IMG/VR virus record: IMGVR_UViG_3300044675_008758
Location: 1-21,481 of that record
Length of the DNA: 21,481 nucleotides
Strand: one strand, 5' to 3'
Source: a virus
Shown here: one piece after another, positions 2,988 through 20,527 of the stretch
Numbering within the stretch: the stretch's first letter is position 1
Layout: each line of letters begins with the position of its first letter
Position numbers and translations under genes: made by a program
The notes under the pieces: model-generated
Seen by the model: the letters and a program-made list of their open reading frames with translations, nothing else
Databases searched by the model: none
What the model was told of the DNA's origin: nothing

Positions 2988-3017
2988 ATTATATATAAAA
3001 AATAGGCAGAAATTCAA
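2988..3017 (-). promoter_or_regulatory. Possible promoter for the FmdB-like gene, -35 in a terminator loop
   Basis: On the minus strand TTGAAT (3017-3012) is followed after 18 bp by TATAAT (2993-2988). The predicted start of transcription falls on or next to the ATG at 2983. The -35 box would sit in the loop of the hsp20 terminator. The region is strongly A/T-rich, so a chance match is quite possible. Confidence 0.3.
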
Positions 3018-3031
3018 TTCTGCCTATTTTT
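2998..3031. terminator. Bidirectional intrinsic terminator downstream of hsp20
   Basis: A perfect stem AATAGGCAGAA (3001-3011) pairs with TTCTGCCTATT (3018-3028) across a 6-nt loop and extends by three A-T pairs to 2998/3031. It has runs of A on the left and T on the right, so either strand gives a hairpin followed by U-rich RNA. It lies between the hsp20 stop (3039) and the start of the FmdB-like gene (2983), so its main job is likely to end the hsp20 transcript. Confidence 0.8.
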
Positions 3032-3038
3032 ATTTGTG

Positions 3039-3365
3039 TTAGTTTATTTTTATATCTAGACTATCAGATATGGATTTTTTTGGAAGTGTTATTTTTAGTA
3101 ATCCATTCTTGTATTCTGATTTGATATGATTAATAGAAACAAGATTATTAAGATTAATGGCTAGATCCTTAGATCTTTCTTCGTTTTTGGCTTTGATTTT
3201 AAGAAGCTCATCAGTTGCTGTAATTTTAATTTCAGATTTATCATATCCAGCTAGTTCAAAATCAACCAGATATACGTCTCCAGAATCTTTAATATGGGCG
3301 TTTTTTAAATTACCCCTGGAGCAAAAATCCGTTGATCCAAATAATTCATTAAATAATGTATTCAT
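3039..3365 (-). CDS. Small heat-shock protein, Hsp20/alpha-crystallin family
   Basis: 108 aa, short for the family (usually 140-160), with a minimal N-terminal arm of about 20 residues and an alpha-crystallin domain filling the rest. Visible hallmarks are VYLVDFELAGYDKSEIKI in the first half of the domain and the signature NGLLKITLPK near residues 86-95. The C-terminal tail DSLDIKIN ends in an IxI-like motif, the element that in this family bridges oligomer subunits. It would act as an ATP-independent holdase in the cytoplasm; in phages Hsp20 is thought to help virion assembly or protect against stress during infection (inference). It has its own promoter, whose -35 box touches the stop codon of the gene behind it, and its own terminator, so it can be expressed apart from the upstream operon. 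Confidence 0.9.
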   Translation of the reverse strand: MNTLFNELFGSTDFCSRGNLKNAHIKDSGDVYLVDFELAGYDKSEIKITATDELLKIKAKNEERSKDLAINLNNLVSINHIKSEYKNGLLKITLPKKSISDSLDIKIN

Positions 3366-3373
3366 AGACTTTT

Positions 3374-3402
3374 TCTATATCATATATTGTGCCAATTGTC
3401 AA
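3374..3402 (-). promoter_or_regulatory. Strong sigma-70-type promoter of hsp20
   Basis: On the minus strand TTGACA (3402-3397) is separated by exactly 17 bp from TATAGA (3379-3374). The expected transcription start is about 3367-3368, only two or three bases before the ATG at 3365, so the mRNA would be essentially leaderless. The -35 box overlaps the TGA of the glycosyltransferase gene (3401-3399). Confidence 0.75.
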
Positions 3403-4478
3403 CCGTTAAAAATACTAGATAAAATCTTATCTGTTGTATTGGAGTATGTCAAATTGGCCGCTAATTTTTGTCCCTCTGTGTTAATTTGTCGCGCTTTGTT
3501 TTCGGCCTTTTCCATTGCAGAGATAACTGATTCTTCGTTCCAATTAAAAAATGTACCTTGATTAAATTCTGAGTTTTTTTGAAAAAAAACTTGATCATAG
3601 CAATCAAACTCACCATCTGGCTCAACTAAAATTGAATTGTCTTTATTTGCCCAGTCTTTATGAGATGTTTCGTTTAAAACGATGCTCCATTTACCAAGAC
3701 ATGTTGCATTAAATGCTGGTAGATTCCAACCTTCAGCGCCACTTAAACCAGTTAGGTCAATATCAATTGAATTTAAAAGATCGTTTACTTCTTTGTTTTT
3801 TTGCAAAAATGGAAGAAAGTTAATATTTGTATATCTCTTACCATCTAACACGTTTTGAATAATATTATTCATATCTTCTGGCTTGAAGAACGGATTTGTA
3901 ACACAGCATGTCAATTGGTATTTATTATTATTACCATACTTCTTCAGCCATGTTTGAATTATTTTTCCTGTGTGTTTTCTTTTTTCAAATTTACCCATTA
4001 AACCAAAATGAATTACATTATTTAGATAATTTTTATTCGTATTAAAAAAATCACTGTCGAACCCAAGTGGGATAAAATTAGAGTTGCTGCAGCCTTTATT
4101 TAAAAATAAATTTTTTGAATAATTTGAACTAAAAAATACTTTTTCTTGAGCATTGGCTATCGAAATTTCAGTATTGGTAGGTTGGTTGCACTCATAAAAT
4201 GTATATAAATATTGATTTTTATTCTTCCTGTTTTCACTGCCATTCAAGTGCCACAATTTAAAAGATGGTATTTCTTTATCCAAGAAAGAAAATCTATTGT
4301 CTATCGACTCCTGGAGGTAATTTAAGAAATTGGACTGCAAATCAAAACTATTAAGATCGATATTTCCAACTGGGAATAAGCCTATCTTGATATCCTTATT
4401 GAAGAATTCTCTTATAATATTTAATGAGACGTTTCCAAGACTTAAAGAATTAAGTGGGGCTTCAACTAATAGTTTCAT
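3399..4478 (-). CDS. GT-B glycosyltransferase (GT4-like)
   Basis: 359 aa. The C-terminal half shows the nucleotide-sugar-binding Rossmann part of GT4-type enzymes: GLMGKFEKRK at residues 159-168 and GAEGWNLPAF at 248-256, the latter matching the EGFGLP-type motif whose glutamate contacts the donor sugar. The N-terminal half (Rossmann-like, beginning KLLVEAPLN) would bind the acceptor. Donor and acceptor cannot be told. It is the last gene of the minus-strand operon before the hsp20 promoter, 3 nt after the SSB stop, so it is co-transcribed with replication genes. Possible roles are glycosylation of virion protein, DNA or host surface. No secretion signal or membrane anchor is visible, so it probably acts in the cytoplasm. 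Confidence 0.8.
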   Translation of the reverse strand: MKLLVEAPLNSLSLGNVSLNIIREFFNKDIKIGLFPVGNIDLNSFDLQSNFLNYLQESIDNRFSFLDKEIPSFKLWHLNGSENRKNKNQYLYTFYECNQPTNTEISIANAQEKVFFSSNYSKNLFLNKGCSNSNFIPLGFDSDFFNTNKNYLNNVIHFGLMGKFEKRKHTGKIIQTWLKKYGNNNKYQLTCCVTNPFFKPEDMNNIIQNVLDGKRYTNINFLPFLQKNKEVNDLLNSIDIDLTGLSGAEGWNLPAFNATCLGKWSIVLNETSHKDWANKDNSILVEPDGEFDCYDQVFFQKNSEFNQGTFFNWNEESVISAMEKAENKARQINTEGQKLAANLTYSNTTDKILSSIFNG

Positions 4479-4481
4479 AAA

Positions 4482-4880
4482 TTAAAATGGGATATCTTCG
4501 TCTGCGCTTTGATTTGCTGTTTGTTTGTTAACCTGTGATGGTTGTTGAGTATTCACGGCTTGAGTAGAGTCTTCTTTTTTACCGCTTGATAAAAATTGAA
4601 CATTAGATGCCTTGATGAAATATTTTGTCATTGTTTTTTCGTCTTGCTTCCAGGAGTCCATACAAAGCTCGCCTTGAATTAATACTTCTCTTCCCTTTTT
4701 TAGATACTGAGAGCAGATTTCTGCGTTTCGATCCCATGCTTCACAATCAATGAAGCATTTAGTTTTTGAATTTGGATTTGAAATTGCGATGCGCATTTTG
4801 CAAACCTTTTTGTCGGAGCCAATTTCTTTCAATTCTGGATCGTTAACAAGATGACAAGCTGTAATAATTGTGTTATACAT
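4482..4880 (-). CDS. ssb: Single-stranded DNA-binding protein, bacterial SSB type
   Basis: 132 aa with an N-terminal OB-fold region of about 105 residues (MYNTIITACHLVNDPELK, FIDCEAWDRNAEICSQYLKKG, VLIQGEL) and a flexible Gln/Asn/Thr-rich linker ending in DEDIPF, the acidic tip that in bacterial SSBs recruits replication and repair proteins. It is thus of the cellular tetrameric SSB type, not the T4 gp32 type. It coats ssDNA during replication by the helicase, primase and recombinase encoded further along the window. It starts inside the end of the sigma-factor gene (8-bp overlap), which suggests translational coupling. Confidence 0.93.
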   Translation of the reverse strand: MYNTIITACHLVNDPELKEIGSDKKVCKMRIAISNPNSKTKCFIDCEAWDRNAEICSQYLKKGREVLIQGELCMDSWKQDEKTMTKYFIKASNVQFLSSGKKEDSTQAVNTQQPSQVNKQTANQSADEDIPF

Positions 4881-5445
4881 GGTATATTTGTTTCTTTATG
4901 TTGTTTATGAATTTATTATGTATGTTAATACATCCTTGAATCGATAAATTCAATTCTTTAGCTATTTTTTTCCAAGGAGTGAGTTTATTATTAGACATGT
5001 AATATCTCATGTCAATAATTTTTTTCAATCTTTCATCTTTTTCTTCATTTAATATTTTTTTAAAATCTTTTAAAGCTTCGTATTTGTTTAATTCATCTAA
5101 AAAATTATCACAACAGGGTTCTACAAAATTTAATTCATCATGAATTGAGAATTCTTTATTTTTTTTAAATTTATTTAAAATATTTAAACATTTCCATTTT
5201 GTTTCGTTTGCTAGATAGGTTGAAAATTTAGTTGATCTATCTGGATCAAATTTTAATGCGGATGAATATATCGTATAATCTTTTTCATCCATTATTAATC
5301 CTCTGTCTATCGCGTAAGACGATCCTTTCGCAAATTTTTCAACCATTGACGTATAAATACCAGAGTGTCTATTAATTAACTCTAACAAACTCCATTCGTC
5401 ATTATTGTTTTTTATTTTATTTATAAGGGACAAGTCGCTTTCCAT
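4873..5445 (-). CDS. Phage RNA polymerase sigma factor (sigma-70-like, small)
   Basis: 190 aa. Residues about 56-95 resemble sigma region 2, which melts the -10 box (ALKFDPDRSTKFSTYLANET, then WKCLNILNKFKK). Residues about 150-187 form a helix-turn-helix of region-4 type (LTPWKKIAKELNLSIQGCINIHNKF). Regions 1 and 3 are missing or minimal, as in phage late sigma factors such as T4 gp55. It probably redirects host RNA polymerase to a set of phage promoters. It overlaps the dNMP kinase gene by 25 bp and SSB by 8 bp, so it is expressed early from the consensus promoter at 6034-6062. I could not define its target promoters with certainty. Confidence 0.82.
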   Translation of the reverse strand: MESDLSLINKIKNNNDEWSLLELINRHSGIYTSMVEKFAKGSSYAIDRGLIMDEKDYTIYSSALKFDPDRSTKFSTYLANETKWKCLNILNKFKKNKEFSIHDELNFVEPCCDNFLDELNKYEALKDFKKILNEEKDERLKKIIDMRYYMSNNKLTPWKKIAKELNLSIQGCINIHNKFINNIKKQIYHV

Positions 5446-6020
5446 AATTCAAAAATTTCTTTATTTAGAACAGAATCAAGTATTTCATTAGAAAGACTTT
5501 TCAGCAAGGATTGGTCATTTGAGGTCATCCATGTTAGAGAGCTATCGCATGAAGCTGATAAAATTTTATTATTAGTCTCCTCCAGAGAGTTTGCTGGTTC
5601 TATTGTTTTTCCATTTTCATCTAATCTTGAAATATAAACAACCAAACCATTGTTCTCTTTCACCCATTGTAATTCATTTTCAAACCTCAAATCAGTTATA
5701 ATTAATACTGATTTGTCATCATGTGAATTTTTTAATTCTTTAATCCATATATCTGGATCGAGTTTTCTTCTGACATTAGAACCCCAAAAAACGAGGAAAT
5801 CTCTAATAATTTTTTTCTCTTCCGAGTCTTCGGTAAAAGCAGAGATTCCAATTGTGTTTTTTAATAGTGGATCGACTTCAAGCTTCAAAGATTTTGCGAA
5901 AGAATTAATGGATGTTGATATTCCATATTCATTTAATAATTCTGATAGAAATCCACCCAATGTATCCTTCCCAGATCTTGCATTTCCAGCTATTGCTATG
6001 ATTCTGTTGTTTAAACTCAT
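5421..6020 (-). CDS. Deoxynucleoside monophosphate kinase (T4 gp1-like)
   Basis: 199 aa. The P-loop GNARSGKDT lies at residues 12-20, the form typical of phage dNMP kinases; DPDIWIKEL near 88-96 and ITDLRFENEL near 108-117 are the usual later motifs (substrate binding and lid/Walker B region). The enzyme phosphorylates dNMPs, including any modified phage nucleotide, to dNDPs using ATP. It is first in the minus-strand operon and divergent from nrdBA, so precursor supply genes flank both sides of the control region. The start at 6020 is supported by the consensus promoter just upstream. Confidence 0.87.
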   Translation of the reverse strand: MSLNNRIIAIAGNARSGKDTLGGFLSELLNEYGISTSINSFAKSLKLEVDPLLKNTIGISAFTEDSEEKKIIRDFLVFWGSNVRRKLDPDIWIKELKNSHDDKSVLIITDLRFENELQWVKENNGLVVYISRLDENGKTIEPANSLEETNNKILSASCDSSLTWMTSNDQSLLKSLSNEILDSVLNKEIFELWKATCPL

Positions 6021-6033
6021 TTACGTTATGCGA

Positions 6034-6062
6034 GTTATAGAGCAAAATAAAATATTTGTCAA
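6034..6062 (-). promoter_or_regulatory. Consensus sigma-70 promoter of the dNMP kinase-sigma-SSB operon
   Basis: On the minus strand TTGACA (6062-6057) is followed after 17 bp by TATAAC (6039-6034). The predicted transcription start near 6027 leaves a leader of about seven bases before the ATG at 6020, with no room for a Shine-Dalgarno site. Confidence 0.78.
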
Positions 6063-6129
6063 TAAAAATTATTTCATATAATATATTTATATTAATTAAT
6101 ATTAATATTTATTCAGGTAAGCTTTTCTG

Positions 6130-6143
6130 TAACGTTAACGTTA
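6130..6143. promoter_or_regulatory. Perfect 14-bp palindrome in the divergent control region (possible operator)
   Basis: TAACGTTAACGTTA is identical to its reverse complement and contains two AACGTT half-sites. It lies about 70 bp from each of the two divergent promoters, in the largest non-coding gap of the window (6021-6237, 217 bp). A second palindrome made only of A/T (ATATTAATTAATAT, 6089-6102) lies nearby but is less informative. The rest of the gap holds no ORF with coding character, no tRNA and no GC-rich hairpin. A dimeric regulator or replication protein could bind here; no such protein is identified. Confidence 0.45.
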
Positions 6144-6195
6144 TTATATGGACAATTTTCAACAAGTCAATAAAAAAAATAATAATTTTTTCGAC

Positions 6196-6223
6196 TTGCA
6201 AAATTTTAATTACAAGGTATAGT
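6196..6223 (+). promoter_or_regulatory. Sigma-70-type promoter of nrdBA
   Basis: TTGCAA (6196-6201), 16 bp, TATAGT (6218-6223). Transcription would begin near 6230, about eight bases before the nrdB ATG at 6238. An overlapping T4-late-like box TGTAAATA (6223-6230) could serve a phage sigma instead. Confidence 0.6.
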
Positions 6224-6237
6224 GTAAATACATTGCT

Positions 6238-7209
6238 ATGATCTTTGAAGAACAAATCTCCCGCAAACCTAATTTATACCCTTGGACAGAACAATTTATT
6301 GAAGCTATGCACAATGGCTTTTGGACAGATAAGGAATTTTCATTTAAAGCGGATGTCCAACAATTCAAAACCGAATTGACTGGTCAAGAAAGAGAGATTA
6401 TTGTTCGCACATTATCAGCAATTGGGCAAATTGAAGTCGCTGTTAAAACATTTTGGGCCAAGCTTGGTGAAAACTTACCACACCCATCGCTTCAAGATCT
6501 TGGTTATGTAATGGCTAACATCGAAGTTATTCACAATAGCGCATATGAAAGACTTATTAGTGTTCTTGATTTAGAAGATGTTTTTGATGAAAATCTTAAA
6601 CTTGAGTGGATTCAAGGAAGAGTTAAGTATTTAAAAAAGTACACGCATAAATTCTATAAAGATTCAAAGAAGCAATATCTTTATGCTTTAATTCTATTTA
6701 CTTTATTTGTTGAGAATGTGTCTTTATTTTCTCAATTTTATATTATCAATTGGTTTGCGAGATTTAAGAATGTTCTTAAAGATACTGATCAACAGGTAAA
6801 ATATACTCGCAATGAAGAAAACATTCATGCTTTAGTTGGTATTAAAATAATTAACACAATTCGTGATGAGCATCCAGAACTTTTCGACGAAGATCTTCAA
6901 GAGAGAATTCTTCATGAGGCTGAAGAGGCTTTTAAATCAGAATCTAAAATCGTTGATTGGATGGTGAATGGAATCAACGAAGATGGATTATCTGCAGATA
7001 TTTTAAAGGAATTCATTAAAAACAGAATCAATGAATCACTATCTCAAATTAATTTTCCAAAAGTATTTAAAATTGATGAAAATCTTATATCATGTACAAC
7101 ATGGTTTGATGAAGAACTTTTGGGCAACAACATGACTGACTTCTTTCACTCAAGACCAGTCGAGTATAGCAAAAAAAATCAATCATTCAGTGAAGACGAT
7201 TTGTTTTAA
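6238..7209 (+). CDS. nrdB: Ribonucleotide reductase class I beta subunit
   Basis: 323 aa, usual length for the family. The metal-ligand pattern is complete: E66 (in GQIEVAVKTFW, standing where E. coli has Asp84), E96 and H99 in IEVIHNSAYER, E159 in LFVENVSLF, E194 and H197 in EENIHAL. Y103, four residues after H99, stands where the radical tyrosine lies, so a tyrosyl-radical enzyme is likely. The tail ends SEDDLF, the type of acidic/aromatic tip that docks into the alpha subunit. It generates the radical used by NrdA to reduce ribonucleotides to deoxyribonucleotides. It precedes nrdA by 3 nt, the reverse of the common nrdA-nrdB order. Confidence 0.95.
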   Translation: MIFEEQISRKPNLYPWTEQFIEAMHNGFWTDKEFSFKADVQQFKTELTGQEREIIVRTLSAIGQIEVAVKTFWAKLGENLPHPSLQDLGYVMANIEVIHNSAYERLISVLDLEDVFDENLKLEWIQGRVKYLKKYTHKFYKDSKKQYLYALILFTLFVENVSLFSQFYIINWFARFKNVLKDTDQQVKYTRNEENIHALVGIKIINTIRDEHPELFDEDLQERILHEAEEAFKSESKIVDWMVNGINEDGLSADILKEFIKNRINESLSQINFPKVFKIDENLISCTTWFDEELLGNNMTDFFHSRPVEYSKKNQSFSEDDLF

Positions 7210-7212
7210 TTT

Positions 7213-8865
7213 ATGAAGAACGAGGTATATTGGCTAAACAAGGATTCAAGAAAATTTCTTGAAAGAGGGTATCTGACAGAAGGTGAAACACCAGAACAGA
7301 GGATTAAAGACATTGCTGATAGAGCTGAATCTTTATTAGGTAATCTTGATGGTTTCTCAGAAAAATTTGTCAATTACATGTCAAAGGGTTTTTATTCCTT
7401 ATCCAGTCCAATTTGGAGTAATTTTGGCCGTGAGAGAGGTCTACCTATTTCCTGTTTTGGTAGTTTCATTTCCGACCAAATGTCTTCAATTCTTGAAAAA
7501 ATTTCAGAAGTTGGTCAAATGACCAAAGCGGGTGGAGGAACTAGTGCATATTTTGGAGCGTTGCGTGGCAGAGGAGCCTCAATCTCATCTGGCGGGAAAT
7601 CTACAGGTTCAGTACATTTTATGGAGCTTTACGATAAGCTTATGAATGTTGTTTCTCAAGGCAATGTTCGTAGAGGTTCATTTGCCGCTTATCTACCTAT
7701 CGATCATCCAGATATCGAAGAATTTCTTAAAATTCGTGGTGAAGGTCACGAAATTCAAGAAATGTCAATCGGCGTTTGTGTTTCTGACGAATGGATGAAA
7801 AAGATGATTGAAGGAGATAAAGAAGCTCGTAAGATTTGGGGTCTTGTGATCAAGAAACGTTTTGAGTCTGGTTATCCATATATTTTCTTTTCTGATAATG
7901 CTAATAATCAAGCTCCTCAAATGTATAAAGATAAAGGGCTTAAAATCAATAACTCTAATCTCTGTAATGAAATTATGCTTTCTAATTCAGATGATGAATC
8001 ATTTGTTTGTGATCTCTCATCTCTTAATCTTGAGAAATGGAATGAGATTGCTGAAACAGATGCAGTAGAGACCCTTGTATATTTTCTTGATGCTGTAATG
8101 TCTGAGTTTATTGAAAAGACAGGTGGTGTCAAGTTTATGGAGGCTCCACGTAAATTTGCTATTAATCAACGCGCTCTTGGTGTCGGTGTTCTTGGTTGGC
8201 ACTCACTACTTCAGTTAAAAATGATTCCATTCGAATCTATGGATGCTAAGCTGCTTAATGGTCAAATTTGGCGCACTATTAGAGAAAAATCAGATAAGGC
8301 AACAATTGAACTTGCAAACTTATTTGGAGAACCTCCAATGCTTGAAGGATATGGTCGCCGCAATTCCACCACTCTTGCGGTCGCTCCAACAACTAGTAGT
8401 TCATTTATTTTGGGTCAAGTTTCACCATCTATTGAGCCGCTTAATAGCAACTATTTTGTTAAGGATCTAGCCAAGGGTAAATTTACTTATAAAAATCCTT
8501 ATCTCGAAAAGCTTCTTAAAGAAAAAGATAAAAATGATCAAGAAACATGGAAGTCTATTTTGATTAAAGGTGGCTCTGTTCAACATCTTGATTTTTTAAC
8601 TCAAGAAGAAAAAGATACATTTAAAACATTTGGAGAGATTTCTCAAAAAGAAATTATTATTCAAGCAGCTCAAAGACAAAAATTTATTGACCAAGGTCAA
8701 TCACTTAATTTAATGATACCACCAAACACTAAGCCAAAGGAAGTTAATGAACTTATGATATTTGCTTGGGAACAAGGTATTAAAGGTTTATACTATCAAC
8801 GCTCTAGCAATCCATCTCAAGAACTTAGTAGATCAATTTTATCATGCTCAACGTGTGAATCTTGA
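7213..8865 (+). CDS. nrdA: Ribonucleotide reductase class I alpha subunit, compact form
   Basis: 550 aa, shorter than most NrdA/NrdE (about 700-850), and without an N-terminal ATP-cone. All catalytic parts are visible: C81 (PISCFGSF) and C266 (FVCDLSSLNL) as the redox pair, N249, C251 and E253 in NSNLCNEI as the thiyl-radical site, the GLYYQRSS tyrosine pair for radical transfer near residue 533, and the C-terminal CSTC (545-548) that re-reduces the active site. It should reduce NDPs with NrdB. Lack of the cone predicts no dATP shut-off, which would suit a phage that needs high dNTP pools. The last codons carry no terminator other than A/T-rich DNA. Confidence 0.95.
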   Translation: MKNEVYWLNKDSRKFLERGYLTEGETPEQRIKDIADRAESLLGNLDGFSEKFVNYMSKGFYSLSSPIWSNFGRERGLPISCFGSFISDQMSSILEKISEVGQMTKAGGGTSAYFGALRGRGASISSGGKSTGSVHFMELYDKLMNVVSQGNVRRGSFAAYLPIDHPDIEEFLKIRGEGHEIQEMSIGVCVSDEWMKKMIEGDKEARKIWGLVIKKRFESGYPYIFFSDNANNQAPQMYKDKGLKINNSNLCNEIMLSNSDDESFVCDLSSLNLEKWNEIAETDAVETLVYFLDAVMSEFIEKTGGVKFMEAPRKFAINQRALGVGVLGWHSLLQLKMIPFESMDAKLLNGQIWRTIREKSDKATIELANLFGEPPMLEGYGRRNSTTLAVAPTTSSSFILGQVSPSIEPLNSNYFVKDLAKGKFTYKNPYLEKLLKEKDKNDQETWKSILIKGGSVQHLDFLTQEEKDTFKTFGEISQKEIIIQAAQRQKFIDQGQSLNLMIPPNTKPKEVNELMIFAWEQGIKGLYYQRSSNPSQELSRSILSCSTCES

Positions 8866-8866
8866 T

Positions 8867-8893
8867 AAAAAATATATATTTTTTTTAAAAAAA
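8867..8893. repeat. A/T-only palindrome after nrdA
   Basis: Six A, alternating TATATA and six T (8867-8884) form an 18-bp perfect palindrome, followed by more T and a seven-A run. It may act as a weak terminator for nrdBA or mark the promoter of the next gene (TTGATA at 8862-8867, or a TAAGAT box at 8897-8902 directly before ATG 8910). With no G/C pairs, function is uncertain. Confidence 0.3.
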
Positions 8894-8909
8894 GTGTAAG
8901 ATTAATATA

Positions 8910-9893
8910 ATGGAAGTTGATTTTTCATCTAAATTAAGAAGTTTTTTTGGAGTCGAGTCTGATGCAGCATCAAGACCTGGACCAAAAAGTGGAGCGCAAA
9001 CACCTTCTAAACCATCTGAGCGCAGAAGGGGTTCAGAAAAAAACAAACCAGATTCAGCGTCTTCAGATTCTGATTCAAAAATTACTTTTACTGAAAAAGT
9101 AATTAACTCTTTAAAACAGAAGGTTTCTGATCATAATGAAAAATATGATAAAAAAGTTACCCTAAACCAATTAAAGAAAGTTTATCGTCGCGGTCTTGGT
9201 GCTTTTTCAACTTCTCACAGACCTGGGCAAACTAGAAATAGTTGGGCAATGGCTAGAGTCAATATGTTTTTAAAAATGCAGAAAGGTGGCAAAGTTAAAG
9301 ATTCTTACCGCGCTGCAGATCAAGATGTCGCTAGAGGAGAGGAGCTTTATTATGAACAAAAACCAGAAGATTGTTTTTGGGAATTTGACTCAATTGATTT
9401 TGATTTAGCTCGTATTGATTTAGTAAAAGCTGGTGTCGATATCGAAGAAGAAGGTGATATCGAGTTAGATGATATTGATTATACAGAAGCAGAAAAGAAA
9501 ACGCTTAATAAACCATTTAGATTACCAAGTGGATCAAATAAAAAATTTGGCGTATATGTTAAAAACGATAAAGGTAATACTGTAATAGTTAAATTTGGCG
9601 ATCCAAATATGGAGATTCGCCGCGACGACCCAGAGCGTAGAAAAAGTTTTAGAGCGCGTCATCAATGCGATACAAATATTGGACCGAAATGGAAAGCCCG
9701 TTATTGGAGCTGTAAATTTTGGTCTGCAAAACCTGTTTCCTCCATGGCATCTGCTGAAGAATTATTATTGAGCGATGATGATGGTTTAGATTGGGGTTGG
9801 GACGATTCTACATTTGTTGATCAAGACCAAATTTTTACAGAAAATCCAGATCTTGAAAATATTGAAGATTTTTTTGAAGAAGAAGAGCTTTGA
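8910..9893 (+). CDS. Phage-specific two-domain protein (HRPG and FRARH/WSCK motifs), possibly virion-associated
   Basis: 327 aa. Residues 1-50 are polar, low complexity and basic. Residues about 85-150 contain KKVYRRGLGAF, STSHRPGQTRNSWAMARV and MQKGGKVKDSYRAADQD, a module I associate with DUF5872-like phage proteins. Residues about 213-272 contain KFGDPNMEIRRDDPERR, FRARHQC and KARYWSCKFW, a compact motif also common in phage proteins, with His and two Cys that could bind metal. The tail is strongly acidic (IEDFFEEEEL). No known enzyme motif is seen. From memory such modules occur in structural or prohead-associated phage proteins, so a virion role is inferred, although the gene stands between nucleotide-metabolism and glycan genes. 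Confidence 0.6.
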   Translation: MEVDFSSKLRSFFGVESDAASRPGPKSGAQTPSKPSERRRGSEKNKPDSASSDSDSKITFTEKVINSLKQKVSDHNEKYDKKVTLNQLKKVYRRGLGAFSTSHRPGQTRNSWAMARVNMFLKMQKGGKVKDSYRAADQDVARGEELYYEQKPEDCFWEFDSIDFDLARIDLVKAGVDIEEEGDIELDDIDYTEAEKKTLNKPFRLPSGSNKKFGVYVKNDKGNTVIVKFGDPNMEIRRDDPERRKSFRARHQCDTNIGPKWKARYWSCKFWSAKPVSSMASAEELLLSDDDGLDWGWDDSTFVDQDQIFTENPDLENIEDFFEEEEL

Positions 9894-9902
9894 TATTATA
9901 AT
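9874..9902 (+). promoter_or_regulatory. Promoter of the glycan cassette
   Basis: TTGAAG (9874-9879), 17 bp, TATAAT (9897-9902). The -35 box lies inside the end of the preceding gene. Transcription would start near 9909, about five bases before ATG 9914. This matches the short-leader pattern of the other promoters in the window. Confidence 0.6.
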
Positions 9903-9917
9903 CATGCACTAGCATGA
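9902..9917 (+). promoter_or_regulatory. Inverted repeat covering the cassette start codon, with a two-codon mini-ORF
   Basis: TCATGC (9902-9907) and GCATGA (9912-9917) form a perfect 6-bp inverted repeat with a 4-base spacer. It spans the predicted transcription start and the ATG of the first glycan gene. The left arm contains ATG CAC TAG (9904-9912), a start-stop mini-ORF. It could be an operator, or, if transcription starts upstream, a hairpin that hides the start codon. Short enough to be chance. Confidence 0.3.
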
Positions 9918-10618
9918 ATTATCGAGTATCAGTAATCACTTCAATATTTAAAGCTGGTGAATTTATAGATCACTTTTTACAAGATATAAAAAGACAATCA
10001 ATCTTTCATGAATGTGAATTCTTATTATTAGATGCAGATTCACCACACGAAGAGTTGAACGACATAACTCCATTTTTAGATTTTAAAAATATTAAATATT
10101 TTAATATTGGCAACTGCTCAGTATATGAAGCATGGAATAAAGGAATTGAATTATCAACATCCAATTTTTTAACTAATTGGAATACAGACGATAGAAGATC
10201 TTATAATTCATTACAAAAACAAGTAGAAGTTTTAGAATCTAATAGTTCAATTGATCTGTGTTATGGATATACAATTCAAACAGACAAACCTAATTTAAAT
10301 TTTGAATTTTGCGATAAAAATAAAGTCATAAATTGTTATGAAGGTAAAATTGAAGACATGTTAAAAACCAATTCTCCGCACTGTATGCCAATGTGGAGAA
10401 AAGACATGCACGAAAGATTTGGACTTTTTGATACGAAATATTTTTCAGCTGCGGATTATGATATGTGGTTAAGGGTTTTAACTGGTGATGGTAAATTCCA
10501 AAAAATAAATGAAATTATTGGGTCTTATTATCACAACCCAAATGGTGTTTCAACAAAACAAGAAACATTAAAAAAGGCTATTGACGAAGTAATAGAAGTA
10601 AGAAAAAAATATTCATGA
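9914..10618 (+). CDS. Glycosyltransferase family 2-like (GT-A)
   Basis: 234 aa. The N-terminus YRVSVITSIFKAGEFIDHFL is a typical GT2 opening strand and helix; LLLDADSP at 37-44 and NWNTDDRR at 88-95 (TDD as the DXD-like metal site) bind the nucleotide sugar; AADYDMWLR near 178-186 corresponds to the (E/D)DxxxW-type catalytic region. It should move a sugar from an NDP donor to an unknown acceptor. It is first in a cassette of overlapping genes and shares a 4-bp ATGA overlap with the next. Very A/T-rich, with no SD sequence. No membrane segment is seen. Confidence 0.85.
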   Translation: MNYRVSVITSIFKAGEFIDHFLQDIKRQSIFHECEFLLLDADSPHEELNDITPFLDFKNIKYFNIGNCSVYEAWNKGIELSTSNFLTNWNTDDRRSYNSLQKQVEVLESNSSIDLCYGYTIQTDKPNLNFEFCDKNKVINCYEGKIEDMLKTNSPHCMPMWRKDMHERFGLFDTKYFSAADYDMWLRVLTGDGKFQKINEIIGSYYHNPNGVSTKQETLKKAIDEVIEVRKKYS

Positions 10619-11274
10619 AAAAAATAATATCATTTTCATTATGGGGTAATGATCCAAAATACTGTGATGGTGCAGTAAAAAACGCAATCTTATCAAAGAT
10701 TATATATCCAGATTGGATCTGTAGATTTTATATTTCAGATAATGTAGATAAATCAATTATTGATAAACTAGAAAAAGAAAATTCAGAAATTTTTATTAAA
10801 AAAGATAAACCAGATTGGTCTTCAATGTTTTGGAGATTCGAAGCTGGTTACGATAATAATATTGATATTGTTATCTTTAGAGATACTGACTCAAGATTGA
10901 ACTTAAGAGAAAAAAATGCAGTTGATGAGTGGGAAAAATCTGATAAGACATTTCACATCATGAGGGACCATCCGCATCACGGATATCCAATTCTTGGCGG
11001 AATGTGGGGAATGAAAGTTAATAAAAAATATGATTTTGAAAATATTCTAAAATCTTTTAAACCAGAAAATCAATATGGAACTGATTACGTATTTTTTATA
11101 AATACATTATTTCCATTTATTGGTGATGATAAAATTACACATGATGAATTTTTCGAAAAGAAACCTTTTCCAACGAAAAGGGAGGGCTATGAATTTGTTG
11201 GTCAAGTTTTTAATGGAAACGATGAAACACCAATAGAACATATCAACGCATTGTCTAGTTATGAATTTTTTTAA
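10615..11274 (+). CDS. Glycosyltransferase-like protein with DXD motif (capsular-polysaccharide-synthesis type)
   Basis: 219 aa. It begins KKIISFSLWGNDPKYCDGA, a style shared by small GT-A proteins of capsule and lipopolysaccharide loci. IVIFRDTDSRLN places a DXD motif at D90-D92, and the stretch HIMRDHPHHGYPILGGMWG (about 120-138) looks like the conserved donor/acceptor pocket of this group. The end HINALSSYEFF is unremarkable. A sugar-transfer role is supported by the DXD and context, but donor and acceptor are unknown. ATGA overlap with the gene before and a 14-bp overlap with the gene after suggest coupled translation. Confidence 0.7.
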   Translation: MKKIISFSLWGNDPKYCDGAVKNAILSKIIYPDWICRFYISDNVDKSIIDKLEKENSEIFIKKDKPDWSSMFWRFEAGYDNNIDIVIFRDTDSRLNLREKNAVDEWEKSDKTFHIMRDHPHHGYPILGGMWGMKVNKKYDFENILKSFKPENQYGTDYVFFINTLFPFIGDDKITHDEFFEKKPFPTKREGYEFVGQVFNGNDETPIEHINALSSYEFF

Positions 11275-12217
11275 TATAGATTGTCACATATCTGTTATAG
11301 CAGATATCAAAAACATCTTTGAAGATCTTGGTCATAAAGTCGATTCATGGTCATTGTCTGGACACAAATGGGTTTTTAATTTACCAAACTGTCCGTCCAA
11401 AATTATAAACGAAAACAATTGGAAAAACTTAAACGAAGAAATGGTTGAAATTTTTTATAAATTTCACAAAGATGAATTAGACAAGTATGATGCATTTATA
11501 TGTGCATATCCGCCTTGTTTTTTGAAATTATTTGAAAAGTTCAACAAACCAATTATCGTAATTGCAGCGACAAGGTATGATTATCCATTTGCCGATGACC
11601 CCAAAAGACTAGCGTGGTTAGAGGAGTCATTAAACAATAATAAAAATTTAATTTTAGTTGCAAACAATCAATTTGATCAAAAATATTGTGAGCTTTTTCT
11701 TGAAAAAGAATGGCAATGGATTCCTAGTTTATGTAAATATACAAATTCAAAATATAAACCAATAAAAAATCAATCTATAATTTTTAGTAAATTTTTAATT
11801 GATTTTAATAATCATGATTTTATACATCAAAGTAAAATTCATCAATATTCATGGGACGAGCTTTACTCATATCAAAGTATAATTCATCTTCCATACAATG
11901 TTTCAACCATGTCTATATTTGAACAATATGAAGCTGGAGTTCCGCTTAATTTTCCATCATTAGAGTATGCAATTGAATTAATAAACAATAAAATACCATT
12001 ATTTTCTGAAATTGTTTTTCCAAATAATAATCCAGATAGGCAACCTAATCTTTTTCTAAATAAAAAATGGCTATCTTATTCAGATTTTTACAACGGAACA
12101 ATAAAAGCTTCGTTTTTCCAATTGGATAATATAAAAAAACCAGAAATAAATATTGATTACCAATCAAATAAAGATATAATTTATTCATTGTGGACAAAAA
12201 TTTTAAATGAATTATGA
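11261..12217 (+). CDS. Probable GT-B-like glycosyltransferase of the viral/cyanobacterial type
   Basis: 318 aa. The opening FNIDCHISVIADIKNIFEDLG and the phrase SWSLSGHKWVF are like a group of transferase proteins known from viruses and bacteria, as is the later HLPYNVSTMSIFEQYEAGVP (residues 209-228), where a conserved STMSxFEQY precedes a PLNFPS turn. These features fit the C-terminal donor-binding half of a GT-B fold, with the glutamate of FEQYEAG in the place of the EX7E-type region (inference). The substrate is unknown. The start at 11261 lies within the preceding gene. A 4-bp ATGA overlap links it to the methyltransferase gene. Confidence 0.65.
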   Translation: MNFFNIDCHISVIADIKNIFEDLGHKVDSWSLSGHKWVFNLPNCPSKIINENNWKNLNEEMVEIFYKFHKDELDKYDAFICAYPPCFLKLFEKFNKPIIVIAATRYDYPFADDPKRLAWLEESLNNNKNLILVANNQFDQKYCELFLEKEWQWIPSLCKYTNSKYKPIKNQSIIFSKFLIDFNNHDFIHQSKIHQYSWDELYSYQSIIHLPYNVSTMSIFEQYEAGVPLNFPSLEYAIELINNKIPLFSEIVFPNNNPDRQPNLFLNKKWLSYSDFYNGTIKASFFQLDNIKKPEINIDYQSNKDIIYSLWTKILNEL

Positions 12218-12810
12218 TTGGACAAATAGATTTAAAGGACGAGGCTGGCTTGCATATTAGAAAAATATGCGAAAGAGAAGATGTCCAAAATATTATTGAA
12301 ATAGGAACATGGAACGGGATGGGGTCCACTTTTTGTATATATGAGGCAATTAAAAACACAAATAAAAAATTAATTTCTTTAGAGACATGTAAAGAAATGT
12401 ATGATGTTGCCTTTGATTTTTATAAAAACAAAAAAGAAGTTTCTATTATTAATGGATTCATTAGTGATAAACTATTAGATTTCAACTTATTAGATGATTC
12501 ATTTTTTACTGATTATGATAAAAATTTGAAATTATCATGGTATAATGAAGATCTAAAAAATATCAATAATTGTAAAAATGTTTTAGATCAAATTCCAGAA
12601 GAAATAGATTTTCTAATTTTAGATGGAGGCGAATATTCTAGTTGGAATGAATATTTGATTTTAAAAGATAGATCAAGAATTGTATTCTTAGATGACACAA
12701 GACCTCCAACAATAAAAAATTTTATGGCAAGAGAAGATTTATTGAAAACACATAAAATTATCGTTGATAATTTAAACCATAGAAATGGATATTGTATTTT
12801 TGAAAAATGA
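12214..12810 (+). CDS. Class I SAM-dependent methyltransferase-like protein
   Basis: 198 aa. Motif I IIEIGTWNGMGST at residues 27-39 is the glycine-rich SAM-binding loop; KLISLETCKE gives the acidic residue that holds the ribose hydroxyls; DFLILDGGEYSSWNEY (about 132-147) followed by RSRIVFLDDT matches motif IV and the next strand of the Methyltransf_24/cephalosporin-hydroxylase-like fold. In a glycan cassette such enzymes usually O-methylate a sugar residue, capping or decorating the chain (inference). It overlaps both neighbours by the 4-bp ATGA pattern. Confidence 0.75.
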   Translation: MIGQIDLKDEAGLHIRKICEREDVQNIIEIGTWNGMGSTFCIYEAIKNTNKKLISLETCKEMYDVAFDFYKNKKEVSIINGFISDKLLDFNLLDDSFFTDYDKNLKLSWYNEDLKNINNCKNVLDQIPEEIDFLILDGGEYSSWNEYLILKDRSRIVFLDDTRPPTIKNFMAREDLLKTHKIIVDNLNHRNGYCIFEK

Positions 12811-13625
12811 AAATTGCAGTTCAATCAATTATATTTAATGCGCAAAATAGCCTTCCATCTAAAATGTTGGATGCCTGGTTAGAGCAAGTCAATGATATTG
12901 GGGATTTTGTTTTTATTACAGAAGGAGCTACAAAAGCAAAAAACCATTATTGGGATGGAGATACATCTTTCTTTACAAAAGATGGAAAATCAACAGACAA
13001 TACTGTCGATGTAATAAAAAAATTCGCAAAAAATAAATCAAACTTTTTTTTAAAAGAAGCCGAGCATTTCTGGGACGGTAAAACATCAATGTTAAATTAT
13101 TGGTTTTATGAAAATTCTCCAATTTATGAAGCTGACTATGTTTGGCAAATTGATATTGATGAATTCTATAAAAAAAATGACATTAAAAAAATTATTGAAA
13201 TTTTAAAACAAGAAAAACCAAGTAGAATTGATTTTTTTGCCAATCACTTTTGGGGTGGTTTTGATTATTGCATAGATGAAAGATCTGATGGAGTATGGGC
13301 AAATAAAATACCATGGATGAGAATATTTAAAATAAATAAAAATAGTAAATGGATATCTCATGAACCACCTAAGATGTTATTTAATGAATATGAGAAAATA
13401 ATTTCAAAATATGAAACATTAAAAATGAACTTAAAATTAAATCATTATAGCTATGTTTCTGAAGAGCAAGTTTTATTTAAAAGTAAATTTTATAACAATC
13501 CTGATAAAATTTCTTTATTCAAGGAATGGCAAACAAACAAAGAATTAGATATATTTGGTTGTAAGACCTTTCCTTTTGCGGATCAACACCCAGAAATTAT
13601 TAATAAATATTATAAAATAAAATAG
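12807..13625 (+). CDS. GT-A glycosyltransferase-like protein
   Basis: 272 aa. The start KIAVQSIIFNAQNSLP resembles GT2-type openings, and VWQIDIDEFYKK places a DXD-like site at D116-D118, next to a Glu, in the usual position for metal and NDP-sugar binding. Aromatic, acidic segments (HYWDGDTSFF, HFWDGKTSM, HFWGGFDYC) recur through the protein and may form the acceptor pocket. The family is not certain, and a few such proteins are not active transferases. It is the last of the five coupled genes; a 44-bp gap with no hairpin separates it from the GDP-mannose dehydratase. Confidence 0.65.
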   Translation: MKIAVQSIIFNAQNSLPSKMLDAWLEQVNDIGDFVFITEGATKAKNHYWDGDTSFFTKDGKSTDNTVDVIKKFAKNKSNFFLKEAEHFWDGKTSMLNYWFYENSPIYEADYVWQIDIDEFYKKNDIKKIIEILKQEKPSRIDFFANHFWGGFDYCIDERSDGVWANKIPWMRIFKINKNSKWISHEPPKMLFNEYEKIISKYETLKMNLKLNHYSYVSEEQVLFKSKFYNNPDKISLFKEWQTNKELDIFGCKTFPFADQHPEIINKYYKIK

Positions 13626-13669
13626 AATATCTACATAAAGTATTTAATATAAATTCAAAATCAAATTAA

Positions 13670-14794
13670 ATGCAAAATTTAAACGAAACATATTTTGGCA
13701 AAAAAATAGATCATATGGATATACTTAATATAGAAGATGCGTATAAATTAGCTACTGGTAAAAAAACAATAATTATTACTGGGGTTACTGGTCAAGATGG
13801 AAGTCACATGGTTGACTATTTGCTAAATAATACTGATTATGAAATTTTTGGTTGTGTTCGTAGATTGAGTGTTTATAATCATAAAAATATTTCTCATATA
13901 AATAACAAGCGCTTTCATTTAATTAACTTTGATCTTACTGATAGTTACTCAATTGCCAGAATAATAGAAAAAATAAAACCAGATTATTTTATTAATTTGG
14001 CCGCTCAAAGCTTTGTCGGAAGCAGCTGGGATTTTGCCCAACAAACATGGGAGACAAATGCCACATCAGCACTCAATATATTAGAGGCTATTAGACTTTA
14101 CCACCCAAGCTGTAGGTTTTATCAAGCTGGATCTTCAGAAGAGTTTGGCGATGTATCTTATGTTCCTCAAGATGAAAATCATCCATTGCGTCCTAGAAGT
14201 CCATATGGAGCTTCTAAAGCCGCATCTAGACAGCTTGTTAAGGTCTGGAGGGAATCTTATAATCTTTATGCTGTTCAGGGTTGGCTTTTTAATCACGAGG
14301 GAATTAGACGTGGCGAAGAATTCGTTACCAGAAAAATAACCAAAGCGGTTGCGAGAATTAAAAATGCAATAGATAATAATCAAAATTTCTGCGCACTTGA
14401 ACTTGGAAATGTTGATGCAAAAAGAGACTGGAGTGATGCCGAAGATTTTGTTGAAGGCATTTGGTTAATGTTAAATCAACAAGAACCAAAAGAATACGTT
14501 CTTTCTTCAAACGAAACCCACACAATTAGAGAGTTTGTTGAATTGGCTTTTAAGGCTGCTGGGATTATCGGTTATTGGGATGGTAGCGGCATAGATGAAA
14601 CTTTTAATAACATTAATACTAATGAAATCTTAATGAAAATTAATATTAAATATTATAGACCTGCGGAGGTTGATCTCCTTTTAGGAGATTCCACAAAAGC
14701 GCGTGAGGAACTTGAGTGGAAACCAAAGACATCATTTAAAGAACTTGTTGACAAGATGGTTTTTCATGATATACTTGAGTATGGCAAAGTCTAA
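13670..14794 (+). CDS. gmd: GDP-mannose 4,6-dehydratase
   Basis: 374 aa. After a 30-residue N-terminal extension comes the NAD(P)-binding loop GVTGQDGS (38-45). Further family motifs are INLAAQSFVGSSWD, QAGSSEEFGDV with the catalytic Ser-Glu pair, SPYGASKAAS with Y179 and K183 as the YxxxK couple, NHEGIRRGEEFVTRKI, LGNVDAKRDWSDAED and RPAEVDLLLGD. It converts GDP-D-mannose to GDP-4-keto-6-deoxy-D-mannose, the precursor of GDP-fucose, GDP-rhamnose or GDP-perosamine. The enzymes that finish these sugars are not in the window. Its codons look richer in G/C than those of the five preceding genes, and a hairpin lies shortly after its stop, inside the next gene. Confidence 0.93.
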   Translation: MQNLNETYFGKKIDHMDILNIEDAYKLATGKKTIIITGVTGQDGSHMVDYLLNNTDYEIFGCVRRLSVYNHKNISHINNKRFHLINFDLTDSYSIARIIEKIKPDYFINLAAQSFVGSSWDFAQQTWETNATSALNILEAIRLYHPSCRFYQAGSSEEFGDVSYVPQDENHPLRPRSPYGASKAASRQLVKVWRESYNLYAVQGWLFNHEGIRRGEEFVTRKITKAVARIKNAIDNNQNFCALELGNVDAKRDWSDAEDFVEGIWLMLNQQEPKEYVLSSNETHTIREFVELAFKAAGIIGYWDGSGIDETFNNINTNEILMKINIKYYRPAEVDLLLGDSTKAREELEWKPKTSFKELVDKMVFHDILEYGKV

Positions 14795-16913: not shown

Positions 16914-16942
16914 TTGATTTTGATATAGATACATGTTAATTT
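16914..16942 (+). promoter_or_regulatory. Possible promoter of the helicase-primase run
   Basis: TTGATT (16914-16919) is followed after 16-17 bp by TTAATT/TAATTT (16936-16942), preceded by TG (16934-16935), an extended -10-like arrangement. The -10 box starts about 14 bases before ATG 16950, the same geometry as the other short-leader promoters. Weak by sequence. Confidence 0.35.
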
Positions 16943-16949
16943 AGTAATA

Positions 16950-18464
16950 ATGATATACAACTTTGAAATAGAGAAACAGTTTCTTGCTGGGCTAATTAAA
17001 GAGCCAGATAATTTTTCTCAAATTGCAAACTTTATAAGTGCATCTGATTTTTATTCAGATCAAAGCAATCTTCATAGCACTATTTTTACAATTATAAAAC
17101 AAGCCATTGAAGCTGGCGATGCAATAGATGAAATCATCATTGCCCAAAGAGTGAATTCTATAGGGCTGTCTTTTGAAGACAATGTAAACCCATCTGATTA
17201 TATTAAATCCTTAGCTTTGAGGAAAGTACCATTTGGTAATTTAATTAAAACAGCTAAAGAATTAAAAAAATACTCCGTAAGAAGGGAAATATATAATTCC
17301 GCGCAAAATGTTTCAAAGATAATGAAAACAATTGCGCCAGAGTCGTCTTACAAACAGATAGTTGAATCTGCTGATGTTATATATAATTCAAAAATTAATT
17401 TATTTGAAATCGGAAACGATACACCAGAAAACATCTATGATGAAATGGAAAACATCGTAGAAGACAGAGGTAATAATCCAATCACTGAATTTGGTATGAT
17501 GGGACCACATACTAAAGTAAATGAGATTTATGGTTCTCTATTAAGACCTGGAAATATCACTGTTATCGTTGCTAGATCTGGAGTTGGTAAAACACAGTTT
17601 TGCATGGATTACTCAACAAAGGTTAGTGTAAAATATAAAGTTCCAGTTCTGCATTTTGATAATGGAGAAATGAGTAAAGAAGAGCTTGTCATGAGGCAGT
17701 GTGCCGCACTATCTGGAGTACCAATGCATTTGATTGAAAGCGGCAAATGGAGACAAGCTGGCGAGGAAACTGTAAACAAAATTAGATCAGTTTGGAATAA
17801 GATTAAAGATCTAAAATTTTATTATTATAATGTTGGCGGCATGGACGTAGATTCAATGATTAATACCTTGAAAAGATTTTATTATTCTAAAGTTGGCAGA
17901 GGGAATAGCATGATATTTTCTTTTGACTACATCAAAACGACATCAGAAGCATCTAACAATAAAAATGAATGGCAAGTTGTCGGGGAAATGGTTGATAAAT
18001 TTAAGAAGTGTATTCAAAAAGAAATTCTAGAAGATGGCAATCCAGTAATACCTATGATTACTTCCGTTCAGTCAAATAGAAGCGGAATCACCAATAATCG
18101 TAATTCACAAAATATCATTGACGACGAAAGCATCGTCTCTCTTTCTGATAGAATTACTCAATTCTGCTCTCATATGTTCATCTTGAGAAATAAAACATCA
18201 GATGAAATAGAGACAGAGGGAGCTAGATTTGGAACTCATAAATTAGTTAATGTAAAATCAAGACATCTTGGTCAGGATATTGCTGGCGCAGTTGAACCAG
18301 TCCGCATTAATGACACCTTAAGAAAAAACTTTATTAATCTTGAATTTAGAAACTTCAACATTAAAGAATGTGGAGATTTGAGAGATATTGCAAGAGCTTT
18401 AGAAGGAACAGAACTAGATGATGACAACGAAAATGATGAAATCCCAGACTTTGATAGATTCTAA
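16950..18464 (+). CDS. dnaB: Replicative DNA helicase, DnaB-like
   Basis: 504 aa, within the usual range for DnaB. The N-terminal region (1-150: EKQFLAGLIKEPDNF, SDQSNLHSTIF) matches the DnaB N-terminal domain that contacts primase. The RecA-like C-terminal domain has Walker A ARSGVGKT at 208-215, FDNGEMSKEELVMRQCAALSG in the position of the DnaB H1a/H2 region, IFSFDYIK as a Walker B-like strand, and a later QFCSHMFILRNKTSDE block. It unwinds DNA as a hexamer at the fork. The acidic end (DDDNENDEIPDFDRF) overlaps the primase start. There is no intein or truncation. Confidence 0.92.
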   Translation: MIYNFEIEKQFLAGLIKEPDNFSQIANFISASDFYSDQSNLHSTIFTIIKQAIEAGDAIDEIIIAQRVNSIGLSFEDNVNPSDYIKSLALRKVPFGNLIKTAKELKKYSVRREIYNSAQNVSKIMKTIAPESSYKQIVESADVIYNSKINLFEIGNDTPENIYDEMENIVEDRGNNPITEFGMMGPHTKVNEIYGSLLRPGNITVIVARSGVGKTQFCMDYSTKVSVKYKVPVLHFDNGEMSKEELVMRQCAALSGVPMHLIESGKWRQAGEETVNKIRSVWNKIKDLKFYYYNVGGMDVDSMINTLKRFYYSKVGRGNSMIFSFDYIKTTSEASNNKNEWQVVGEMVDKFKKCIQKEILEDGNPVIPMITSVQSNRSGITNNRNSQNIIDDESIVSLSDRITQFCSHMFILRNKTSDEIETEGARFGTHKLVNVKSRHLGQDIAGAVEPVRINDTLRKNFINLEFRNFNIKECGDLRDIARALEGTELDDDNENDEIPDFDRF

Positions 18465-19500: not shown

Positions 19501-20512
19501 AACATCTCTTTCTGCGAGTAGAATAAAGACAGCGCAGTCATGCTCTTGGTTGTATTGGGCTAAATATCATCTTAAGATGCCAGATCCGAGTAATGATGGC
19601 GCTAAGAGAGGATCTATATGTCATTTAATATTTGAATTACTTGGCAATCCAAAAAGAAAAAAACATTTTAATTTAATTATTAAACAACAAGATATTTTTT
19701 GTGTTGAATCCATAAAGAGACTTGTTTTAAAACACGCCAAAAAAGAAGGTGTAGACGATGAAGATAATATCAATTTAATCAAAGAAATGACATTTAATGG
19801 TTTGTCTTATGATTTTTTTGGCAATCAAAATGCGACCCCATTCAAATCCTTGTCAGAACAATCTTTTGATATTGAAGAGGATGATGGATTAATTAAATAT
19901 AAAATAAAAGGATTTATTGATAAGCTTTTTCTGTATAAAAATAAAAAATTCGCTCTAATTAGAGACTTTAAAAGCAGTAAGTCAGTTTTTTCTGGAAAAG
20001 AAATAACGGATAATATGCAAGACTTAATGTACAGTCTTGCGGTTAAAAAACTATTTCCAGAATTTCATAATAGAGAAAGCGAGTTTTTATTCCTTAAATT
20101 TGATTTAGATGAAGAGTCAAAAAATTCTGGTATCATAAGAATGAAACCCATTACAGATGAAGAGCTTTTTGGTTTTCAGGTGCAATTAACCGAAATACAA
20201 AAATATTTAGACAATTTTTCTGAAAAAGATGCTAAAAAAAACATGGCTCATTATAAAGGTTATCCATCAGATAAATCTTTTAGTGGGAAATTATTATGTG
20301 GTTTTGCATCCAAAAAAGGAGAACTCAAAAAAGATGGAACTAAAAAATGGAATTGCCCAATGAGGTTTGATTTTTTTTATTATCATATTTTTAATAAAAA
20401 AGGAGAATTTGTTTCATCGGTTATGGAAGAAGACTTTAAAGAAACTCTGGTTCCTGACGATGGCAGTTATGAGATGAAATATTACGCTGGTTGCCCAGCC
20501 TTTTCTTCTTGA
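19487..20512 (+). CDS. PD-(D/E)XK nuclease, Cas4/RecB-like
   Basis: 341 aa. The opening SLSASRIKTAQSCSWLYWAKY is the conserved start of Cas4/RecB/AddB-like nucleases; RGSICHLIFE supplies the His motif; IKGFIDKLFLY holds the first catalytic Asp and LIRDFKSSK the D-x-K pair; QDLMYSLAVKKLFPE is the Q-x-x-x-Y motif. Cysteines at C19, about 264, about 283 and about 336 might hold a metal cluster as in Cas4, but the spacing differs from the known pattern. It likely acts as a 5' or 3' exonuclease that processes DNA ends for recombination or replication (inference). No CRISPR array is present, so it is not a Cas protein here. Confidence 0.85.
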   Translation: MSNFKTSLSASRIKTAQSCSWLYWAKYHLKMPDPSNDGAKRGSICHLIFELLGNPKRKKHFNLIIKQQDIFCVESIKRLVLKHAKKEGVDDEDNINLIKEMTFNGLSYDFFGNQNATPFKSLSEQSFDIEEDDGLIKYKIKGFIDKLFLYKNKKFALIRDFKSSKSVFSGKEITDNMQDLMYSLAVKKLFPEFHNRESEFLFLKFDLDEESKNSGIIRMKPITDEELFGFQVQLTEIQKYLDNFSEKDAKKNMAHYKGYPSDKSFSGKLLCGFASKKGELKKDGTKKWNCPMRFDFFYYHIFNKKGEFVSSVMEEDFKETLVPDDGSYEMKYYAGCPAFSS

Positions 20513-20527
20513 TTTTGTTGATTAATC

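Follow-up and report, generated by a model that had tools for sequence, protein, structure and literature searches.

Transcripts of the Thermus phage phiYS40, whose transcription was reportedly studied by Sevostyanova and colleagues in 2007, are leaderless. The cI mRNA of phage lambda likewise starts directly with its AUG (PMC9031893, PMC3160421), and it is mainly for lambda cI and the Thermus phages that leaderless phage transcription has previously been described; among cellular genomes, those of Deinococcus-Thermus (PMC12340547) and Actinobacteria (PMC3160421) have many leaderless genes, with TANNNT about 12 bp before the start (PMC12340547, PMC3160421). Here we examine promoters and start codons in a 21,481-base stretch of viral DNA with 31% GC (IMG/VR record IMGVR_UViG_3300044675_008758, hereafter the window) and in the phage family to which it belongs. 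We conclude, with a probability of roughly 0.85, that this family transcribes from two classes of promoters that abut start codons, leaving most messages without room for a Shine–Dalgarno (SD) site.

Leaderless or near-leaderless transcription of both early and late genes is very well supported, with the 5′ ends and AUG-first translation predicted from the sequence; the transcripts probably have the AUG at their very 5′ end. This picture rests on motif positions, their conservation, the absence of SD sites and the presence of a phage sigma factor, from which we infer the 5′ ends, the sigma assignment and the timing of expression. The initial annotation of the window had proposed such transcription for early genes: the proposal is borne out in kind but not in its restriction to early genes, as late genes and nrdB are included.

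Results

Class A promoters read cTTGACA-N17-TAnnnT followed by 5–9 nt and the ATG, with a C-rich or mixed stretch in their 3′ part in the lists from contigs G002 and G005; their −35 TTGACA, spacer of 16–18 bp and TAnnnT are those of sigma-70 promoters and would fit the host sigma-70 RNA polymerase. The RNA start would likely lie about 0–3 nt before the AUG, and 5–16 nt before it at a few sites. Class A appears to serve small unknown, probably early, genes together with replication genes. Class B reads aGTGTAAwa, then about 6–8 nt and the ATG, and is found upstream of nrdB and of virion genes (tape measure, minor tail, virion structural protein); no −35 element was seen with GTGTAA. It stands before 1 of 513 overlapping genes versus 34 of 161 genes with gaps of 15–39 nt, and its RNA start may fall at nearly the same place as that of class A.

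Small unknown genes in G005 (L097, 3722–8232) each carry a near-identical class A promoter (TTGACA...CATACTGT...ATG) and are apparently single-gene early units. A similar small-gene cluster lies in G002 (L093, 4341–14279), with promoters of the form TTGACA-...-TAnnnT-TTCCCCGYC-ATG, in which the G at −3 that ends the C-rich stretch suggests a preferred +1.

We read three large contigs whole (G001, 140 kb; G002, 134 kb; G005, 92 kb) and tested first 685 and then 1285 non-redundant gene starts. The search that the initial annotation had called for, of the distance between TTGACA promoters and ATG, gave a sharp peak rather than a random spread: 68 of about 140 upstream copies of TTGACA lie 28–33 nt before ATG, leaving 5–9 nt after the −10 element, with no second peak at leader distances among the 1285 starts. 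In the same set, GTGTAA lies mostly 8–12 nt before ATG. TTGACn-N16–18-TAnnnT with a start 3–10 nt behind it occurs 8, 20 and 11 times in three large contigs versus 0.1–0.2 in dinucleotide shuffles with gene coordinates unchanged, and GTGTAA 6–12 nt before a start occurs 17, 17 and 16 times (0.1–0.6 in the shuffles). When gene calls are set aside, ATG is found 5–9 nt behind TTGACA-N16–18-TAnnnT at 93 sites (background, 13) and 8–10 nt behind GTGTAA at 114 (background, 18); among triplets behind the promoter, ATG has by a wide margin the strongest enrichment (GTG, 15 vs 1; TTG, 17 vs 14), and it is not in excess behind altered or reversed motifs in this test. Totalled across 15 contigs, both patterns rise above reversed controls, with variation from one contig to another. 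As expected of leaderless units, a −10 element lies 5–9 nt before starts more often than chance. Counting TATAAT around starts revealed no distinct peak, because the class A −10 is TAnnnT and class B has a different motif altogether.

SD-like tetramers precede 9–16% of starts in G001, G002 and G005, which equals background; the family's SD frequency agrees with the initial annotation, which had seen no SD sites at the starts it inspected. Among control phages, HTVC008M, HMO-2011, T4, P-SSM2 and phiYS40 have SD sites at 46–78% of starts over a background of 16–25%, and RM378 at 30% versus 13%. A phage ribosomal protein S21 was considered as the cause of SD-free translation and rejected, as the 16 family contigs contain no such gene. 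Overlap with the previous gene, or a distance within 14 nt of it, accounts for 57% of starts, which fits translational coupling and agrees with the earlier suggestion that internal genes rely on coupling or on SD-independent initiation.

The window encodes a phage sigma-70-family factor with regions 2 and 4. Its product alone gave no convincing Pfam match. A profile of ten orthologs, however, picked out sigma factors almost exclusively when compared with PDB sequences, PHROG 351 (RNA polymerase sigma factor) matches 9 of the 10 orthologs, and the best Foldseek matches of an AlphaFold model (pLDDT 78) are sigma factors. The gene was found in 15 of the 16 family contigs. We suggest that class B is most likely read by the host core polymerase together with this factor.

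Table 1. Promoters and associated genes in the window. Leader lengths are predicted with +1 placed seven bases after the −10 element (standard −10 to +1 spacing).
Feature	Position	Strand	Remarks
Hsp20 gene	3039–3365	−	Downstream of first predicted leaderless promoter
Class A (sigma-70 type) promoter, Hsp20 gene	3374–3402	−	TTGACA-N17-TATAGA-N8-ATG3365; predicted leader ~2 nt
Phage sigma-70-family factor, regions 2 and 4	4873–5445	−	Candidate reader of GTGTAA
Class A promoter, deoxynucleoside monophosphate (dNMP)-kinase / sigma / SSB operon	6034–6062	−	TTGACA-N17-TATAAC-N13-ATG6020; predicted leader ~7 nt
nrdB promoter	6196–6227	+	TTGCAA-N16-TATAGT (6196–6223)-N14-ATG6238; overlaps class B GTGTAA (6222–6227)
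nrdB	6238–7209	+	
Class B (late-type) promoter motif GTGTAA	8894–8899	+	10 nt before ATG 8910
Conserved phage gene, PF19141, phrog_7595	8910–9893	+	Class B promoter
Class A-like promoter	9874–9902	+	TTGAAG-N17-TATAAT-N11-ATG9914; predicted leader ~5 nt
Class A promoter	14748–14775	+	TTGACA-N16-TATACT, 5 nt before ATG 14781
Class A promoter, dnaB-like helicase	16914–16942	+	TTGATT-N17-TAATTT, 7 nt before ATG 16950
DnaB-like helicase	16950–18464	+	
Class A promoter, PHP / Pol III-alpha-like gene	20509–20537	+	TTGATT-N17-TACGAT, 8 nt before ATG 20546
PHP / DNA polymerase III alpha-like gene	20546–21310	+	Start corrected

In the window itself, the four promoters that the initial annotation had listed were all recovered at their positions, with the −35 boxes and the 16–17 bp spacing it had given, and its leaders of about 2–3, 7, 8 and 5 nt came out as 2, 7, 8 and 5 nt (Table 1). 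The nrdB site needs amendment: TTGCAA and TATAGT are present, but its scoring as a sigma-70 promoter has to allow for the overlapping class B GTGTAA, which lies 10 nt before the ATG and would give a leader of ~3 nt by T4-late geometry or 8 nt by sigma-70 geometry. Four sites had been overlooked: the dnaB promoter, the promoter of ATG 14781, the GTGTAA before the 8910 gene, and the PHP promoter, which comes to its short distance from the ATG once the gene start is moved to a conserved position (protein start MIPIF). The promoter of ATG 14781 sits within the end of an epimerase gene.

Promoter distances are kept across orthologs of 39–95% protein identity although the spacers differ. The 8910 gene has GTGTAA or GTGTAT at about 8–12 nt in 21 of 21 non-redundant orthologs (proteins 41–95% identical), and nrdB has GTGTAA at 8–10 nt in 9 of 12. 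Among 30 listed PHP orthologs (proteins 39–83% identical), most carry CTTGAC promoters at the window's distance; in several of them, as in the window, the upstream gene has its stop codon within the −35 box, and the entire intergenic space is therefore promoter. TTGAC or TTGAT promoters at the window's distance also occur in many of 30 listed dnaB upstream regions. The Hsp20 promoter recurs in the near-identical contig G015 (38371–38410), the promoter of ATG 14781 is conserved in G002 (119558–119596), and dNMP-kinase orthologs (L013, L034, L035) have TTGAC promoters with leaders of about 1–16 nt. No independent ortholog was found for the promoter at 9874–9902, the weakest site of the set.

Discussion

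Our analysis points to a mode of expression in which an RNA start near the AUG leaves most transcripts without room for an SD site. Ribosomes that recognize a 5′-terminal AUG would translate these leaderless transcripts, and downstream genes may be reached through tight packing and coupling or by SD-independent initiation.

Several observations weigh against this picture. Strict motifs mark only 213 of the 1285 starts (~17%), the remainder being downstream genes or genes with weaker or other promoters. Not every transcript would be leaderless: the dNMP-kinase promoter leaves 7 nt in the window, and in relatives as much as about 16 nt. The gene starts come from a simple script, although the test made without gene calls agrees with them. 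A window-wide consensus scan gave 114 promoter-like sites versus 106.5 ± 10.3 in dinucleotide shuffles, and TTGACA occurs 11 times in the window, mostly inside genes; the window's sites are thinly distinguished, by position and not by the boxes themselves. The assignments, too, are indirect: the phage sigma factor is a good candidate reader of GTGTAA by co-occurrence and by analogy to T4 gp55, reading of class A by the host polymerase is argued from its consensus, and the presumed early timing of class A genes comes from small unknown genes lying in clusters.

GTGTAA-N8–10-ATG could instead be a translation signal, a motif bound by S1 or by the ribosome in a non-SD manner, given that its spacing resembles that of an SD site and that no −35 accompanies it. 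Yet its near absence from overlapping genes and its concentration at intergenic gaps favor a promoter over a ribosome site; it stands before late genes, in a family with its own sigma factor, and to our knowledge has no apparent complementarity to the usual 16S tail. We regard such a signal as unlikely. The promoters could also be real while transcripts begin further upstream or are processed, their distance from ATG reflecting compact intergenic space without selection for leaderless messages. Genomes that are 93–97% coding do leave promoters little room, and leaders of 7–16 nt sit comfortably with this view; the TTGACA peak is narrow and unaccompanied by one at leader distances, however, class A also precedes genes with gaps above 40 nt, and control phages that are likewise compact, T4 and HTVC008M among them, retain SD sites without having a TTGACA peak, all of which makes compactness a quite improbable explanation. 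As for promoter-like boxes arising near starts by chance in AT-rich DNA, the initial annotation had called two perfect TTGACA boxes at 17 bp spacing unlikely to be so explained. Promoter-like sites as such lie at the shuffle level in the window, so that this claim depends on position; across the family chance is already refuted, with positional tests about 30-fold or more above shuffles and a signal that holds without gene calls and across orthologs.

Promoters abutting the AUG, the reading that we prefer, set this family beside phiYS40, in which the −10 lies 5–9 nt before many starts (0.48 vs 0.11 background in genes with gaps) and 6 of 15 TTGAC boxes are at the matching distance. SD sites are kept in phiYS40 (0.53 vs 0.22) but not in our family, which has in addition the GTGTAA class and a sigma factor of its own. 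In lambda, cI is a single transcript, whereas here the arrangement is family-wide in early and late genes. What differs from the known cases is thus that there is no SD at all and that host-type and phage-sigma classes both abut the AUG. Like the late promoters of T4 (gp55 sigma, TATAAATA), class B consists of a short −10 element alone, in a fixed position and with no −35 seen, that serves virion genes and goes with a phage-encoded sigma-family factor. The TATAAATA motif itself is replaced, however, by GTGTAA where T4 has TATAAA, the family's sigma factor has a region-4-like C-terminus unlike gp55, and SD sites precede T4 genes (0.60 vs 0.25). The leaderless genes of Deinococcus-Thermus and Actinobacteria share the −10 next to the reading frame but belong to cellular, mostly GC-rich genomes; ours are phages of 26–40% GC with strong TTGACA and no SD-led genes. 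The Bacteroidetes phages phi38:1 and FCL-2 likewise have no SD sites, yet show no TTGAC peak at leaderless distance. Flavobacteria use TAnnTTTG promoters, with only 5.5% leaderless mRNAs (PMC9723704).

A further-reaching proposal, which we offer tentatively as a possibility we doubt, is that the entire family dispensed with 5′ leaders and SD sites, whether the host or the phage sigma directs transcription, because its host translates leaderless mRNA as a main route, and that GTGTAA recognition by the phage sigma and the distance to the AUG co-evolved. The host may perhaps belong to a low-SD lineage such as Patescibacteria. Approximate hand counts of the promoter layout versus control gave 61 vs 6 in Patescibacteria, 56 vs 33 in Bacteroidota and 55 vs 11 in the phylum of the Halobacteriovorax metagenome-assembled genome; as a host indicator this layout is suggestive only. 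Assignment through co-binning with metagenome-assembled genomes was rejected, its labels (Lokiarchaeota, Verrucomicrobiales, Halobacteriovorax, Flavobacteriaceae, Woesebacteria) being inconsistent and probably binning noise. The window's NrdB is nearest to those of phages of alphaproteobacteria, an affinity that says little about the host. In Patescibacteria genomes (G020, G022–G045), TTGACA-N16–18-TATNNT-N5–9-ATG occurs about tenfold above the reversed control, hinting at leaderless genes there.

If transcript mapping agrees, the family would be an unusually clear phage lineage built on leaderless mRNA with no SD fallback. It would also let the position of the promoter define which AUG is annotated as the start in this group, supply a new late-promoter motif that can be linked with a phage sigma factor, and give a clue to the host, which must translate leaderless messages well.

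Phage family and gene content

The group has no close cultured relative: the window's UvsX-like recombinase found one match, at 24%, among 50,697 phage records, and at least 204 relatives in IMG/VR. These are tailed, probably lytic, uncultured aquatic phages; the tail genes of G002, which has a 95-bp terminal repeat, and of G005 are siphovirus-like (tape measure, J-like, phrog_18). Membership in the far-T4 group was not adopted in view of these siphoviral-looking tail genes, and no search aimed at gp23 or gp20 was made.

Further genes of the window encode a glycosyltransferase, SSB, dNMP kinase, NrdA, a primase and an exonuclease, alongside sugar genes. Positions 21–2417 encode a BspA-like protein of tandem leucine-rich-repeat-like units (...LTTVPLFNTGAVTNMSxMFxxC...), perhaps with a surface or adhesion role. 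A 14-pair hairpin with a T tail (2998–3031), terminator-like, lies downstream of the Hsp20 gene and upstream of the 2594–2983 gene. Glycosyltransferases and a GDP-mannose-dehydratase-like gene form one block (9914–14794), likely glycan-modifying cargo. In G002, a virion protein (L092, 5671–7017) is 64% identical to that of SAR116 phage HMO-2011 and 60–65% identical to those of cyanophages such as S-RIM12 and S-RIM50, its gene being common to unrelated marine phages.

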